A stretch of DNA of 33,775 nt from an uncultured Ectothiorhodospiraceae bacterium. GTDB lineage: Bacteria > Pseudomonadota > Gammaproteobacteria > Nitrococcales > Nitrococcaceae. The position numbers were made by a program, and so were the translations under genes. Below the pieces are notes generated by a model that saw only the letters and a list, made by a program, of their open reading frames with translations, made no database searches and was not told where the DNA came from. Of this stretch, positions 4,911-29,677 are shown one piece after another. The stretch spans positions 1-33,775 of the forward strand of contig CAJXSH010000016.1 in NCBI GenBank assembly GCA_913061005.1. The letters are read 5' to 3'. How positions within the stretch are numbered: position 1 is the first letter of the stretch; the number at the start of each line of letters is the position of its first letter.

Positions 4911-5110
4911 AGATGGGTTTCCTGCGGCGTTCGAGAACGGGCTTTCAGCATTCTTGACCCTACAATCATGCGCCTCAGGGGAGTTGTTGTTTTATCGCCA
5001 GTGTGCAGGTCCGCCACGCAGCGGAAAGCCTAAGGCGGTATTCGCCCTCCCCGACCTGAACCACAGGGTTCAAGGGCGTTGCCCGAACGGCGCTGCGGGA
5101 CCCATTCATT
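4911..5110 (+). ncRNA. ssrS: 6S RNA (SsrS)
   Basis: This is a regulatory RNA that mimics an open promoter and binds sigma70 RNA polymerase in stationary phase. The conserved hairpin TGAACCACAGGGTTCAAGGG (about 5057-5078) matches the E. coli CTTGAACCAAGGGTTCAAGGG segment. The piece GGTCCGCC...GGAAAGCCTAAGGCGG (about 5008-5040) matches GGTCCGTCCGAGAAGCCTTAAAAC. The two ends can pair: ATGGGT near 4913 with ACCCAT near 5100, and CGTTCG near 4928 with CGAACG near 5087. They form the long closing stem that defines the rod. The position between zapA and fau is the canonical locus. The ends given are estimates from pairing. An open frame of 96 codons through this region is not considered coding. Confidence 0.9.
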
Positions 5111-25351: not shown

Positions 25352-25960
25352 GTGTCGCTGGACTACCGTCAGGCCGCTTTCTCGCTCTCTGCACCGGACA
25401 GGCAACAGCTGCCGGCGGACACCGGGGCCGAGGTGGCCTTCGCCGGGCGCTCCAATGCCGGCAAATCCAGTGCGCTGAATGCCATTACCGATCAAAAGCA
25501 GCTGGCTAGGGTCAGCAAGACCCCGGGCCGTACCCAGCAGATCAATGTCTTTCCGCTGGATGCGACCCACCGGCTGATCGATTTGCCAGGCTATGGCTAT
25601 GCCAAGGCCCCACCGGCGGTCCGCGAGCACTGGCAGCAGGCCCTTCCCGCCTATCTGGAATGCCGCCAAAGCCTGCGCGGGCTGATCCTGATCAGCGATA
25701 TCCGTCACGCCCTCAACCCGCTGGACGAGCAGATGCTCGCCTGGTGCGAAGCCGCCGGGCTGGCGGTGCATATCCTTTTGAGCAAGGCCGACAAACTCCG
25801 CCGCGGCCCGGCGGGCAACACCGCCGCGCGCATCGCCCCGGCGGCGGCGCGCCTGTGTCCCGGTGCGACGGTGCAGCTTTTCTCGGCGACGACCCGGCAG
25901 GGCGTGGACGAGGCCCGGGCGCGGCTGGACGAGTGGCTTTTGGCCGATGATCGGGCATAA
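25352..25960 (+). CDS. engB: Ribosome biogenesis GTPase EngB (YihA/YsxC)
   Basis: This is an essential TRAFAC-class GTPase needed for 50S subunit assembly. It has 202 residues. G motifs are G1 GRSNAGKS (32-39), G2 TPGRTQ, G3 DLPGYGYA and G4 LSKADKL. The block PAYLECRQSLRGLILISDIRH is typical of the family. The start is the GTG at 25352, with no clear Shine-Dalgarno sequence. Its TAA stop overlaps the T-run end of the terminator that serves the opposite strand. The engB-polA convergence is conserved with E. coli and Pseudomonas. Confidence 0.96.
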   Translation: MSLDYRQAAFSLSAPDRQQLPADTGAEVAFAGRSNAGKSSALNAITDQKQLARVSKTPGRTQQINVFPLDATHRLIDLPGYGYAKAPPAVREHWQQALPAYLECRQSLRGLILISDIRHALNPLDEQMLAWCEAAGLAVHILLSKADKLRRGPAGNTAARIAPAAARLCPGATVQLFSATTRQGVDEARARLDEWLLADDRA

Positions 25961-25995
25961 AAAACCCCGGAGCCCATGGGGAGTGGGCCCCGGGG
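25959..25995 (-). terminator. Intrinsic terminator of polA / candidate sRNA
   Basis: On the minus strand the stem pairs CCCCGG with CCGGGG and GCCCA with TGGGC. It has a single internal mismatch and a 7-nt loop, and a run of six T follows (A run at 25959-25964 on plus). It acts leftward only, since no T run follows on the plus side. Its tail overlaps the engB stop codon. Confidence 0.85.
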
Positions 25996-26082
25996 ACCTT
26001 GGGGCCGGCCTTGGGGGCAGAACCGGCCCCGGGTGGCCCGCTAGCAAGGGAGGGAGTAGCGGGCCGCGCCGGGCACTGGCGC
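25959..26082 (-). ncRNA. Candidate small RNA at the Spot 42/ErsA locus (polA-engB gap)
   Basis: Read on the minus strand, three hairpins follow one another. H1 (26035-26065) has a 9-bp perfect stem and the loop CTCCCTCCCTTGC. H2 (26001-26030) has an 8-bp perfect stem GGGGCCGG/CCGGCCCC and the loop TTCTGCCCCCAAGG. H3 (25965-25995) is an intrinsic terminator with the loop CTCCCCA. All three loops are C-rich and complementary to Shine-Dalgarno sequences. Spot 42 in E. coli and ErsA in Pseudomonas aeruginosa lie at this locus on the polA strand. A TACAGT hexamer (26084-26089) is a possible -10 box with a poor -35. A sigma-E-like GAACTC-N16-GTCACT (26089-26116) overlaps the polA stop. The 5' end is a guess. 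The alternative is a structured polA 3' UTR. Confidence 0.5.
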
Positions 26083-26114
26083 AACTGTAGTGACAGCAGA
26101 CGGTGGCGATGAGT

Positions 26115-28841
26115 TCAGTGGGCGGCGTCCCAGTTTTCGCCCACGCCGATATCCACCTCCAGCGGCACATCCAGCTCGGCGGCCCGGGTCATGAACTCGC
26201 GGATGCGCTCGCCGACCGCCTCGGCCCGATCGGCCGGGACCTCGAGTACCAGCTCGTCATGGACCTGCATGACCAGCGCCACATCGCTCGCCTCGGACTC
26301 GATCCACGCGTCCACGGCAATCATGGCGCGTTTGATGATATCCGCCGCGGTGCCCTGCATGGGGGCGTTGATGGCCGTGCGCTCGGCGTACTGACGACGC
26401 TGGTTGTTGCGGCTAATGATTTCGGGCAGATAGAGCCGCCGGCCATAGACGGTCTCGACATAGCCCTGCTCGCGGGCCTGGGCGCGGATCCGGTCCATAA
26501 AATCGCGCACCCCGGGGTAGCGCTCGAAGTAGCGATCCACATAGGTCTGGGCCTCGCCGCGCTCGATGCCCAGCTGCCGGGCCAGTCCCCAGGCGGACAT
26601 CCCGTAGATCAGCCCGAAGTTGATGGCCTTGGCCGCCCGGCGCTGCTCGTCGCCGACCTGGCCGGGCTCGCCGCCGAAGACCTCGGCGGCGGTGGCGGCA
26701 TGGATGTCCTCGCCCTGCTCGAAGGCCTTGAGCAGCCCGGCATCCCCCGAGAGATGGGCCATGATCCGAAGCTCGACCTGGGAGTAGTCGGCGGCCATCA
26801 GCACGTGGCCGGCGGCCGGCACGAAGGCACGCCGGATACGCCGGCCCTCGGCCGAGCGCACGGGGATGTTCTGCAGATTGGGGTCGGATGAGGAAAGCCG
26901 CCCGGTGGCCGCCACCGCCTGGTGATACGAGGTATGCACCCGGCCGGTGTCGGTGTTGATGAGCTGGGGCAGTTTTTCGGTATAGGTCGAGCGCAGCTTG
27001 GAGACCCCGCGGTAGTCAAGGATCAGCCGGGGCAACTCGTGGCCCTGGGCGGCGAGCTCTTCGAGCACCGACTCGGCGGTGGATGGCGCACCCTTGGGGG
27101 TTTTGGCGAGCACCGGCAGGCCCTGGCGCTCGTAGAGGATCTCCTGGATCTGCTTGGGCGAGCCCAGGTTGAACGCCCCGCCGGCGGCTTCATGGGCTTC
27201 GCCTTCCAGGCGCTGCATGGTCTCGGCGAGCTCCTGGCTTTGCTGGCGCAGCCGATCGGCATCCACCCGCACCCCGGTCCGCTCGATGCGCGAGAGCACC
27301 GGCAGCAAAGGGATCTCGATGTCTTCGTACACCGATCGTGGGCCCTCGAGGTCGGCGAGCTGCGGCCAGATGGCCTGGTGCAGCCGCAGGGTGATGTCCG
27401 CATCCTCGGCGGCATAGTCCACCGCCTGGTCCAGCGCCACCTGGTCGAAGGTGATCTGCTTGGCCCCCTTGCCGGCCACCGCCTCGTAGGCGATGGGCTG
27501 GTAGTTGAGATACTGACCGGCCAGGGTGTCCATGTCGTGCCGCGAGGCGGCGGCGTCCAGGCAATAGGACTCGAGCATGGTGTCGTGGACCACGCCCCGC
27601 AGGGTGATGCCGTGGTTGGCCAGAACGCTCATGTCGTATTTGAGGTTCTGCCCCAGCTTGGGCCGGTCCGGGTCCTCGAGCAGCGGCCGGAGCCGCTCGA
27701 GGGTGGCATCGCGGTCGAGCTGCTCGGGCTGGTCAGGGCCGGTATGGGCAAGCGGCAGGTAGGCGGCCTCGCCGGCTTTCACGGCAAACGACACCCCCAC
27801 GATGCGGGCTTTCATGTACTCGAGACTGTCCGTCTCGAGGTCAAGGGCAAAGCACTCGGCCTGTGCCAGGCGCGCCAGCCAGTCATCGAGGCTTGCCTGA
27901 TCCTGGATGCCGACATAATCGGCATCGGGGCAGTCGCTGTTGTGCCGGTCCACGGCCGGCTGGCCGGGCGGGTCGCCGGCGTCATCGCCTGCGAGTTCGC
28001 GCAGCCAGGTGTTGAACCCCAGCGACTTGAACCACCCCACCAGGGCCTCGCGATCGGGCTCGCCCAGGCGGATATCCAGCGGCGCCAGGGGCAGGTCGAC
28101 ATCGCAGTGGATGGTGGCCAGTTGCTGCGAGAGGGCCAGCTCGTCGAGATGGGCGCGCAGGTTTTCGCCCACCTTGCCGCCGATCTCGTCGGCGTGCTCG
28201 CGAATGCCCGCCAGCGAGCCGTACTGGTTGAGCCATTTGACCGCGGTCTTGGGCCCGACCTTGGGCACACCGGGGATGTTGTCGACGCTATCCCCCACCA
28301 GGGCCAGATAATCGATGATGCACCCCGGCGGGATGCCGAATTTCTCGACCACCCCATCGTGGTCGAGCACGGTGTTGGACATGGTGTTGAGCAGGGTGAC
28401 ATCGCCGTTGACCAGCTGCGCCATGTCCTTGTCGCCGGTCGAGATCAGCAGACTGAGGCCGGCCTCTCGGCCGCGCACCGCCAGGGTGCCGATGACATCG
28501 TCCGCCTCGACGCCACCGACCTCGATCAGCGGCAGCCCCATGGCCTGGACCACCGATTTGAGCGGCGCGATCTGGCAGGCCAGATCCTCGGGCATGGACG
28601 GACGGTTGGCCTTGTATTCGGCGAAAAGCTCATCGCGAAAGGTCTTGCCCGGGGCGTCGAAGACCACCCCCATGTGCACCGGCTGGTAGTCCTGGATCAG
28701 CCGCCGGAGCATGCTGATGACGCCATAGATGGCGCCGGTGGGCTCGCCGGCGGGGTTGGTCAGCGGTGGCAGCGCGTGGTAGGCCCGATAGAGATAGGAC
28801 GAGCCATCCACCAGCAATAACCGTTTGTCGGGATCAACCAT
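26115..28841 (-). CDS. polA: DNA polymerase I
   Basis: This 908-residue repair and Okazaki-fragment polymerase has all three domains. The 5'-3' exonuclease (about 1-290) includes LLLVDGSSYLYRAYHALP and GVEADDVIGTLA. The 3'-5' proofreading domain (about 310-500) has its acidic residues: DLETDSLE, NLKYDMSVL and YAAEDADITLRL. The polymerase domain includes the LMAADYSQVELRIMAHLS palm motif, the O-helix block RRAAKAINFGLIYGMS and MQVHDELVLEV. The length is close to E. coli (928). The start is the ATG at 28841 (MVDPDKRLLLVDG), preceded by GGAGG at 5 nt. Further in-frame upstream codons lack similarity. It ends 120 nt before the hairpin terminator and is divergent from the LOG gene. Confidence 0.98.
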   Translation of the reverse strand: MVDPDKRLLLVDGSSYLYRAYHALPPLTNPAGEPTGAIYGVISMLRRLIQDYQPVHMGVVFDAPGKTFRDELFAEYKANRPSMPEDLACQIAPLKSVVQAMGLPLIEVGGVEADDVIGTLAVRGREAGLSLLISTGDKDMAQLVNGDVTLLNTMSNTVLDHDGVVEKFGIPPGCIIDYLALVGDSVDNIPGVPKVGPKTAVKWLNQYGSLAGIREHADEIGGKVGENLRAHLDELALSQQLATIHCDVDLPLAPLDIRLGEPDREALVGWFKSLGFNTWLRELAGDDAGDPPGQPAVDRHNSDCPDADYVGIQDQASLDDWLARLAQAECFALDLETDSLEYMKARIVGVSFAVKAGEAAYLPLAHTGPDQPEQLDRDATLERLRPLLEDPDRPKLGQNLKYDMSVLANHGITLRGVVHDTMLESYCLDAAASRHDMDTLAGQYLNYQPIAYEAVAGKGAKQITFDQVALDQAVDYAAEDADITLRLHQAIWPQLADLEGPRSVYEDIEIPLLPVLSRIERTGVRVDADRLRQQSQELAETMQRLEGEAHEAAGGAFNLGSPKQIQEILYERQGLPVLAKTPKGAPSTAESVLEELAAQGHELPRLILDYRGVSKLRSTYTEKLPQLINTDTGRVHTSYHQAVAATGRLSSSDPNLQNIPVRSAEGRRIRRAFVPAAGHVLMAADYSQVELRIMAHLSGDAGLLKAFEQGEDIHAATAAEVFGGEPGQVGDEQRRAAKAINFGLIYGMSAWGLARQLGIERGEAQTYVDRYFERYPGVRDFMDRIRAQAREQGYVETVYGRRLYLPEIISRNNQRRQYAERTAINAPMQGTAADIIKRAMIAVDAWIESEASDVALVMQVHDELVLEVPADRAEAVGERIREFMTRAAELDVPLEVDIGVGENWDAAH

Positions 28842-28895
28842 GAGCGCCTCCTGCTGACTGTACCGGCATGATAACCGGGCAAGCGGCTCAGGTGG

Positions 28896-28931
28896 GTTGC
28901 CCATCGCCGGCAACGCCCATGCGATCATGGG
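28896..28931 (+). other. Tandem hairpins upstream of the LOG-family gene
   Basis: Two adjacent inverted repeats lie in the 116-nt divergent polA/LOG gap. They are GTTGCC-7 nt-GGCAAC (28896-28914) and CCCATG-CGAT-CATGGG (28916-28931). They end 14 nt before the GAGGAG ribosome site of the LOG gene. In RNA they would form a structured leader, and in DNA they could be operators. On the minus strand TATCAT near 28870 may be the polA -10 box, with no clear -35. Confidence 0.4.
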
Positions 28932-28957
28932 GCCTGACAGGTGTGAGGAGCGCAGCA

Positions 28958-29677
28958 ATGAGCGTCGAACCCCGGCATCCATCCAACCCCGACCCGGACG
29001 GTGGCCTGCTCAAGGGCGAGTCCTGGCGGATCTTTCAGATCATGGCCGAGTTTGTCGAAGGCTCGGAGCGGCTGGCGGCGCTGGGGCCGACGGTGAGCTT
29101 CTTTGGCTCGTCACGGGTGGCCGCGGATCATCCCTGGTATGAAAGCGCCCAGGACACCGCCCGGCGGCTGGCCGAGGCCGGGTTTGCCATCGTCAGCGGT
29201 GGCGGGCCGGGCGTCATGGAGGCCGCCAACAAGGGCGCCCAGCAGGGCGGGGCGACCAGCGTGGGGCTCAACATCCAGCTGCCCCGCGAGCAGATCCCCA
29301 ACGCCTATCAGGATATCCGGCTGTATTTCCGGCACTTTTTTGCCCGCAAGGTGATGTTCGTGAAATACGCCTCGGCCTATGTGGTCTACCCCGGCGGCTT
29401 TGGCACGCTGGATGAGCTCGGCGAGATCCTCACCCTGATCCAGACCGGCAAGAGCCGCCGCATCCCGGTGATCCTGGTCAACCAGGGGTACTGGCAGGGG
29501 CTATTGGACTGGATGGCGCAAAGCCTGGTGGCCGAGGGCAGCATCGACCGGGCGGATCTGGATTTGCTCTGCCTGGTGGACCGGCCCGAGGCGGTCCTCG
29601 AAGCAGTGCTCGATCATTACCGTGGCCGGGGGATCGAGCCTTCGCAGGAAGAGCGCGAGCGCCAGCTCGATCTCTAG
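28958..29677 (+). CDS. LOG family protein (TIGR00730-type Rossmann fold)
   Basis: This 239-residue protein belongs to the LOG family, formerly mis-called lysine decarboxylase. Members hydrolyse nucleoside 5'-monophosphates at the N-glycosidic bond, for example as cytokinin-activating phosphoribohydrolase, or act as AMP/IMP nucleosidases. Diagnostic motifs are GGGPGVMEAANKGA (about 83-96) and PGGFGTLDELGE (about 143-154). The Arg/Lys pair in FARKVMFVKYA is also present. The start is the ATG at 28958 with GAGGAG 7 nt upstream. The stop TAG shares a CTAG with the convergent uvrD stop. The substrate cannot be told from sequence. Confidence 0.92.
   Translation: MSVEPRHPSNPDPDGGLLKGESWRIFQIMAEFVEGSERLAALGPTVSFFGSSRVAADHPWYESAQDTARRLAEAGFAIVSGGGPGVMEAANKGAQQGGATSVGLNIQLPREQIPNAYQDIRLYFRHFFARKVMFVKYASAYVVYPGGFGTLDELGEILTLIQTGKSRRIPVILVNQGYWQGLLDWMAQSLVAEGSIDRADLDLLCLVDRPEAVLEAVLDHYRGRGIEPSQEERERQLDL

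Follow-up and report, generated by a model that had tools for sequence, protein, structure and literature searches.

The convergent housekeeping genes engB and polA of a salt-loving bacterium leave a gap between them, and this locus raises the question of whether the gap holds an RNA gene of its own and, if so, whether that gene is related to the small RNAs (sRNAs) already known beside polA. A position at polA is common to sX13, Spot 42 and the alpha-r7 RNAs, and the authors of the sX13 study posed the question of sRNAs being encoded at further polA loci as well (PMC3771888). The DNA analyzed here is a stretch of 33,775 nucleotides, referred to below as the window, in which the gap spans positions 25961-26114.

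Position and Structure of the RNA Gene

A single RNA gene, on the same strand as polA, occupies almost all of the 154 bases between the convergent genes (Table 1, in which R1 is a covariance model built from the genus copies only). The RNA ends in a U-tract that runs into the engB stop codon, and the -35-like box at the other end runs into that of polA, so promoter and RNA together take up the whole gap. The 5' end of the sRNA is predicted to lie near 26083-26086.

Table 1. Features of the engB-polA region, in window coordinates.
Feature	Position	Strand	Evidence or remark
engB (yihA/ysxC) GTPase gene, convergent neighbor	25352..25960	+	TIGR03598, 218 bits, above cut-off
sRNA gene, ~125 nt	25959..26083	-	R1 match, 131 bits; sX13 match, 25958-26077; fold
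Terminator U-tract, six T	25959..25964	-	Two-base overlap with engB stop codon (25958-25960)
SL3, intrinsic-terminator hairpin	25965..25995	-	Loop CTCCCCA
SL2 hairpin	26001..26030	-	Loop TTCTGCCCCCAAGG; invariant CCCC, covarying stem
SL1 hairpin	26035..26065	-	Loop CTCCCTCCCTTGC; CCCTCCCTT invariant across the genus
SL0, 5' hairpin GCGCC-AGTGCCC-GGCGC	26066..26082	-	8/10 stem and 6/7 loop positions invariant (15 genus sequences)
-10-like box GTCACTA	26088..26094	-	16 bases downstream of the -35-like box
-35-like box GAACTC	26111..26116	-	Shares two bases with polA stop TGA (26115-26117)
polA, upstream neighbor on the RNA strand	26115..28982	-	ORF as listed; Pfam DNA_pol_A, 542.8 bits

The minus strand folds with a minimum free energy of -77.5 kcal/mol, compared with a shuffled mean of -61.3 kcal/mol (z = -4.05), a value that none of the 200 shuffles equaled. 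Between 25900 and 26300, a scan for terminator-like sites detected SL3 with its T-run and no other (shuffle mean 0.1). The plus strand is also stable (z = -3.39), as is usual for inverted repeats, but has no terminator-like site in the same scan. The mean unpaired probability is 0.93 for the SL1 loop, 0.99 for the SL3 loop and 0.66 for the SL2 loop, with the four central C residues of the latter at 1.0.

An earlier note on this DNA, made from the sequence alone, had described three successive hairpins with C-rich loops on the polA strand, the last of them a terminator with six T, and the sequence matches that description. The label of a three-hairpin RNA holds for these three and fails as a count, as it overlooks a fourth hairpin, SL0, which is the most conserved part of the RNA, together with the promoter-like motif at 26088-26116. 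The broader proposal, that the polA-engB gap houses a separate sRNA gene whose C-rich loops are able to pair with Shine-Dalgarno sequences, is supported.

Conservation and Covariation

The best relatives of the window engB are found in Spiribacter and Ectothiorhodospiraceae MAGs, and the genus of the window and of the 14 genomes compared is probably Spiribacter. The gap was read in each of these genomes and contains the RNA in all 14 (15 copies, two of them in genome G046). The expectation that stems and C-rich loops would be kept in relatives was borne out by a covariation check on the 15 aligned copies. Standard pairs are kept in 96.4% of the paired cells, and both sides have changed at 13 of the 35 pairs, which amounts to 44 doubly changed cells, compared with 15.9 after shuffling. 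The covariation score was reached by none of 500 shuffles, and pairing falls to at most 46% when the partners are slid by one base. Within the genus, the loop cores CCCTCCCTT, CCCC and CCC show no variation, unlike the stems of SL2 and SL3 (mean identity 0.78 and 0.81, respectively).

Beyond the genus, SL0 is near-invariant across 35 copies from the order, which were collected with an SL0 pattern. Matches to R1 and to a second model, R2, in the stretches read place a copy near polA or engB in at least 42 of the 54 order genomes: 14/14 in the genus, on which R1 was trained, 7/9 in the rest of the family and 21/31 in other families. The figure is a lower bound, as in the remaining 12 genomes either the stretch read had no copy or another stretch was read. 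Two genomes belonging to a single genus have four tandem copies of the RNA each (G223:C33:13150-13901, locus L174; G330:C8, locus L211, 1501-2433), and two copies each are present in G053 (L188), L185 and L199. The strand of the RNA gene within the gap is switched in families f3 and f4 relative to family f1 (for example, L127:1366-1483 and L164:1720-1839).

Orientation Relative to polA and engB

The main alternative named in the earlier note was an RNA derived from the 3' UTR of polA. In its wider form, this alternative holds that the RNA is a fragment of the polA mRNA, or a mere strong terminator between convergent genes, with neither promoter nor function of its own. The RNA starts 31 bases past the polA stop codon on the same strand and has a terminator at its end, and a sigma-70 scan gave no promoter for it, all of which suits such an origin. 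Against this stands the arrangement in related families. The RNA lies on the strand opposite polA in 12/12 copies of family f3. Five copies in family f4 (G022, G023, G024, G029 and G030) lie on the engB strand, those of G022, G023 and G024 at 44-46 bases from engB in stretches that contain no polA, and in family f1 the RNA is on the strand opposite to engB. An RNA that is inverted in the gap, or that stands beside engB without polA, is not a polA 3' UTR, and since the arrangements in f1 and in f3/f4 differ, no single 3' UTR explains both. The identification as a polA 3' UTR was rejected on these grounds. Furthermore, the GAAC...GTC motif is conserved, the C-rich loop cores are invariant though the stems of SL2 and SL3 covary, and the invariant 5' hairpin would be superfluous for a plain terminator. 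An RNA with neither promoter nor function of its own is accordingly considered most improbable here.

A Candidate Sigma-E Promoter

The motif GAACTT-N15/16-GTC is located upstream of the order copies and resembles the sigma-E consensus, GGAACTT..TCTGA. Its strict form occurs in 32 of the 35 order copies, the set in which it was first noticed, and is missing from three. Outside the order, it is present in 25 of the 40 R1 matches at named loci (missing from 15) and in 17 of the 27 class loci (missing from 10), compared with a background of 0.67-0.95% in random windows. Three Pseudomonas-type copies have GAAC..GTC, and the betaproteobacterial loci with anti-hemB have GGAACT. In G325, G217 and G065, sX13 has GAACC but a TATA-like -10 box, and a further match in Xanthomonadaceae, G684, has GAACC..GTC. 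In genus genomes with short gaps, ACTT or ACTC recurs at the start of the gap after polA, in the register of the motif.

RpoE and Hfq are both found above cut-off in the genome from which the window comes, and a sigma-E promoter of its own (RpoE/AlgU type) probably drives the window RNA. For ErsA, transcription is described as sigma-22-dependent (PMC5819304). In Burkholderia cenocepacia, the anti-hemB RNA ncS04 is unchanged in all seven conditions of the expression table (PMC5688073), which disfavors simple stress induction in that organism.

Relationship to sX13, ErsA and anti-hemB

No Rfam family matches the polA-engB gap at gathering thresholds. The sole Rfam match above cut-off in the window is 6S RNA (RF00013) at 4916-5105 on the plus strand, with 82 bits. 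The top two of the 15 window matches at E<=10 are sX13 (RF02232; 35.2 bits, E 2.6e-5, model positions 1-115 of 115) followed by ErsA (RF01719; 31.8 bits, E 1.2e-4, model positions 34-114 of 116), each of which is below its cut-off of 50. The anti-hemB family (RF02837) scores 17.8 bits (E 0.065), below its gathering score of 49.5. Other weak window matches, among them 6C, Scr3202 and sX11, were set aside, all being below cut-off. At E<=1, the sX13 model matches 28 of the 54 genomes of the order and also 3 of the 14 controls, and a single genome, G043 of the same genus, exceeds its cut-off (50.2 bits). The ErsA model matches 27/54 order genomes and 0/14 controls, with 0/54 above cut-off, and the two models coincide in position in 11 order genomes.

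The search was also run in the opposite direction, with the genus-only model. The 75 named engB loci searched, all from outside the genus, amount to 580 kb and give 43 R1 matches at E<=1; 42 of these lie between -60 and +250 bases of the engB stop codon, where uniform scatter would place 1.81. Rfam models applied to 17 of the R1-searched loci found ErsA above cut-off in 11 and anti-hemB in 4; R1 recovers 9 of the former and all 4 of the latter, and R2 adds the remaining two. R1 matches reach E<=0.01 in 53 of the 369 class genomes, and engB or polA is present at 26 of the 30 class loci listed for this model, own locus counted. The sX13 cut-off is exceeded in three genomes of the class, and R1 recovers the same RNA in two of them (E 3.6e-5 and 2.4e-5). 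It misses the sX13 of G217, which R2 (90 hits) recovers at 57.4 bits with a same-genus copy in its training set. Double changes occur at 35/35 pairs in the 90-hit alignment, which is biased towards R1, the model to which it was fitted; the support that the wider set gives to the features of the superfamily comes from this model-fitted alignment. The window RNA itself has the position beside engB/polA, the covarying stems, the C-rich loops and the GAAC..TC motif.

These results do not support the earlier view of a third, sequence-unrelated sRNA type at this site, as the sX13 and ErsA models match the window RNA and a model from its genus alone finds ErsA, anti-hemB and sX13 loci. Judged from its sequence, the window RNA is a real sRNA gene, and it is new as a relative of sX13 and ErsA, scoring below the thresholds of both.

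The weak R1 matches (15-25 bits) may reflect a shared terminator and C-rich loops alone. Neither engB nor polA is present at six of the 15 class loci with sX13-model matches (L210 and L212-L216), and some sX13-model matches in the class are clearly due to chance; L214, with a GAACTT motif and C-rich hairpins, may be a real copy. Second weak matches of the ErsA or sX13 type occur in the genome of the window (G000:C4:110196-110271, minus strand, 27.6 bits) and in G040 (G040:C1:534592-534676, locus L111, 27.9 bits), and these are possibly paralogues or chance matches.

One Family or Convergence

It is reasonably probable that a single ancient sigma-E sRNA moved with engB through the gamma- and betaproteobacteria, that sX13, ErsA, anti-hemB and unannotated copies descend from it as an envelope-stress anti-Shine-Dalgarno RNA, in some cases flipped or in tandem, and that Spot 42 replaced it in the Enterobacteria. 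The main rival to this unification is convergence, whereby unrelated RNAs with C-rich loops arose repeatedly beside engB/polA, a site tolerant of sRNAs, and came to act alike without common ancestry. Single-model scores between the families are modest, as would suit convergence: for the majority of Pseudomonas and beta loci, R1 scores are 15-31 bits. In ErsA, SL1 and SL2 are separated by a U-rich unstructured domain (PMC8575079), and Spot 42 and, reportedly, the alpha-r7 RNAs also lie at polA without detectable relation (PMC3771888). However, position, hairpin order and promoter motif are shared jointly by the families, and intermediates link them, including Kangiellaceae locus L039 (53.9 bits with R1) and the numerous genomes of the class in which SL1 has CCCGCT-TCCCTCCCTG-AGCGGG as its core. 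Repeated independent origin is considered unlikely on balance.

The family has limits. R2 matches 32 of 398 genomes in the phylum, and 19 of the 22 in-class loci checked have engB or polA. Eight genomes with R2 matches are outside the class, and 0 of the 7 loci that could be checked has engB, polA or the promoter motif, so that these seven look like chance. A link to alpha-r7 was rejected as unsupported by R2, a judgment drawn from the seven outside-class loci. Spot 42 was likewise rejected as a relative: R1 scores it at 10.3 bits (E 0.096 in 5.5 kb), behind a chance match of 11.3 bits, no R2 match to Escherichia coli Spot 42 was found at E<=1, and the family (RF00021) is not among the 15 window matches at E<=10.

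What appears to be newer is the claim that sX13, ErsA, anti-hemB and the window RNA form one family. In the literature open without subscription (the first ErsA paper, for example, falls outside it), no statement of sX13, ErsA and anti-hemB as one family was found, nor were ErsA and sX13 found named together. sX13 has been studied in connection with virulence in Xanthomonas, ErsA with biofilm and anaerobic growth in Pseudomonas, and anti-hemB through transcriptomics in Burkholderia. Two papers treat the RNAs singly or in other pairings, with anti-hemB paired with ncS04 (PMC5688073) and sX13 given its own accession in a Xylella vesicle paper. If common descent is correct, three RNA families that are catalogued apart are one gene, and knowledge of targets and control becomes transferable between them. 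Descent from one gene also predicts sigma-E control of sX13 and anti-hemB, as well as a deep ancestral target set. The question of a polA-engB hot spot for sRNAs then becomes partly testable, with one RNA linked to engB, rather than polA, over much of the group.

Proposed Mechanism and Candidate Targets

The best explanation of the locus, and one held with good confidence, is a sigma-E-driven sX13/ErsA-like sRNA of an engB/polA-linked superfamily whose C-rich loops would act on G-rich ribosome-binding sites. The window RNA would be a free-standing trans-acting sRNA of ~125 nt with its own terminator, in which stable stems present the C-rich loops UCCCUCCCU, GCCCC and UCCCC. By analogy, these loops would form short duplexes with many mRNAs, at G-rich ribosome-binding sites or within the first codons, and would mostly block translation. 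This expectation comes from sX13, which represses mRNAs carrying 4G motifs and for which repression is reported to need its own C-rich motifs and G-rich motifs in the target and not to need Hfq (PMC3771888).

Duplexes are predicted at -13.0 kcal/mol for the SL1 loop with AGGGAGG and at -15.0 kcal/mol for the SL2 loop with the start region of hfq. Apart from the sRNA itself, no site in the genome of the window is complementary to all 10 nt of the SL1 loop, which suggests that pairing would proceed via short or imperfect seeds. AGGGAGG-N3-9-ATG occurs at 13 places in this genome, compared with 1 for the backwards control; as this enrichment is explicable by Shine-Dalgarno use alone, no target is claimed from it. 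A frame of at least 90 codons opens at 11 of the 13 places, and the frames include yifB, murB, ssb, crp, mdh, a nucleotide-sugar dehydrogenase and a quinone reductase. Twenty AGGGAGG-N3-9-ATG places across the genus were read. AGGGAGG precedes yifB (Mg chelatase-like ATPase) in at least five genomes of the genus (that of the window and G039, G040, G041 and G048; loci L297 and L309-L312), making yifB a possible conserved target across the genus. In the genome of the window, the hfq start region (L171:1683-1705, minus strand) reads ATGTCAAAGGGGCAG, carries AAAGGGGCAG and has 7 nt complementary to the SL2 loop, which is suggestive at most. Repression of hfq by sX13 is reported (PMC3771888).

The RNA could instead bind a protein, for example by titrating Hfq or another RNA-binding protein, rather than pair with mRNAs. 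The near-invariant SL0 has no obvious part in anti-Shine-Dalgarno pairing, and tandem copies such as those seen in some genomes might be expected of a titrating RNA. The dependence of sX13 repression on loop C-rich and target G-rich motifs, and not on Hfq, argues against such protein binding (PMC3771888), which is regarded as quite improbable relative to the pairing of C-rich loops with mRNAs.

Comparison with Known sRNAs

The window RNA shares its location with several known sRNAs. Spot 42 (spf) of E. coli likewise lies between polA and yihA, in the orientation of polA. The alpha-r7 sRNAs of Alphaproteobacteria are also located at polA and, according to PMC3771888, have three stem-loops with apical C-rich motifs.

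The anti-hemB/ncS04 RNAs of Burkholderiales resemble the window RNA in their position beside engB, GGAACT motif and C-rich loops, and R1 and Rfam matches coincide at four beta loci. In contrast to the window RNA, anti-hemB is described by an 81-position model, and in most beta loci no polA was found in the vicinity of engB. Transcription of ncS04 as a 105-nt RNA has been detected (PMC5688073). ErsA (Pseudomon-1) of Pseudomonadaceae lies in the polA-engB gap on the polA strand, as the window RNA does, and SL2 and the terminator with its CUCCCC loop align between the two. The ErsA model leaves the 5' part of the window RNA unmatched, and ErsA, with its U-rich domain, is Hfq-dependent on its reported targets (PMC8575079).

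sX13 of Xanthomonadaceae is located downstream of polA on the polA strand and, like the window RNA, has three stems with apical C-rich loops and a terminator. sX13 measures 115 nt, and its model matches the window RNA end to end. In PMC3771888, sX13 is described as exclusive to Xanthomonadaceae, as rising at high salt, at 37 °C and in minimal medium, and as using G-rich motifs near start codons. The window RNA differs from sX13 in its extra 5' hairpin, GCGCC-AGTGCCC-GGCGC, and in a sigma-E-like -10 box where three sX13 copies have a TATA-like one.
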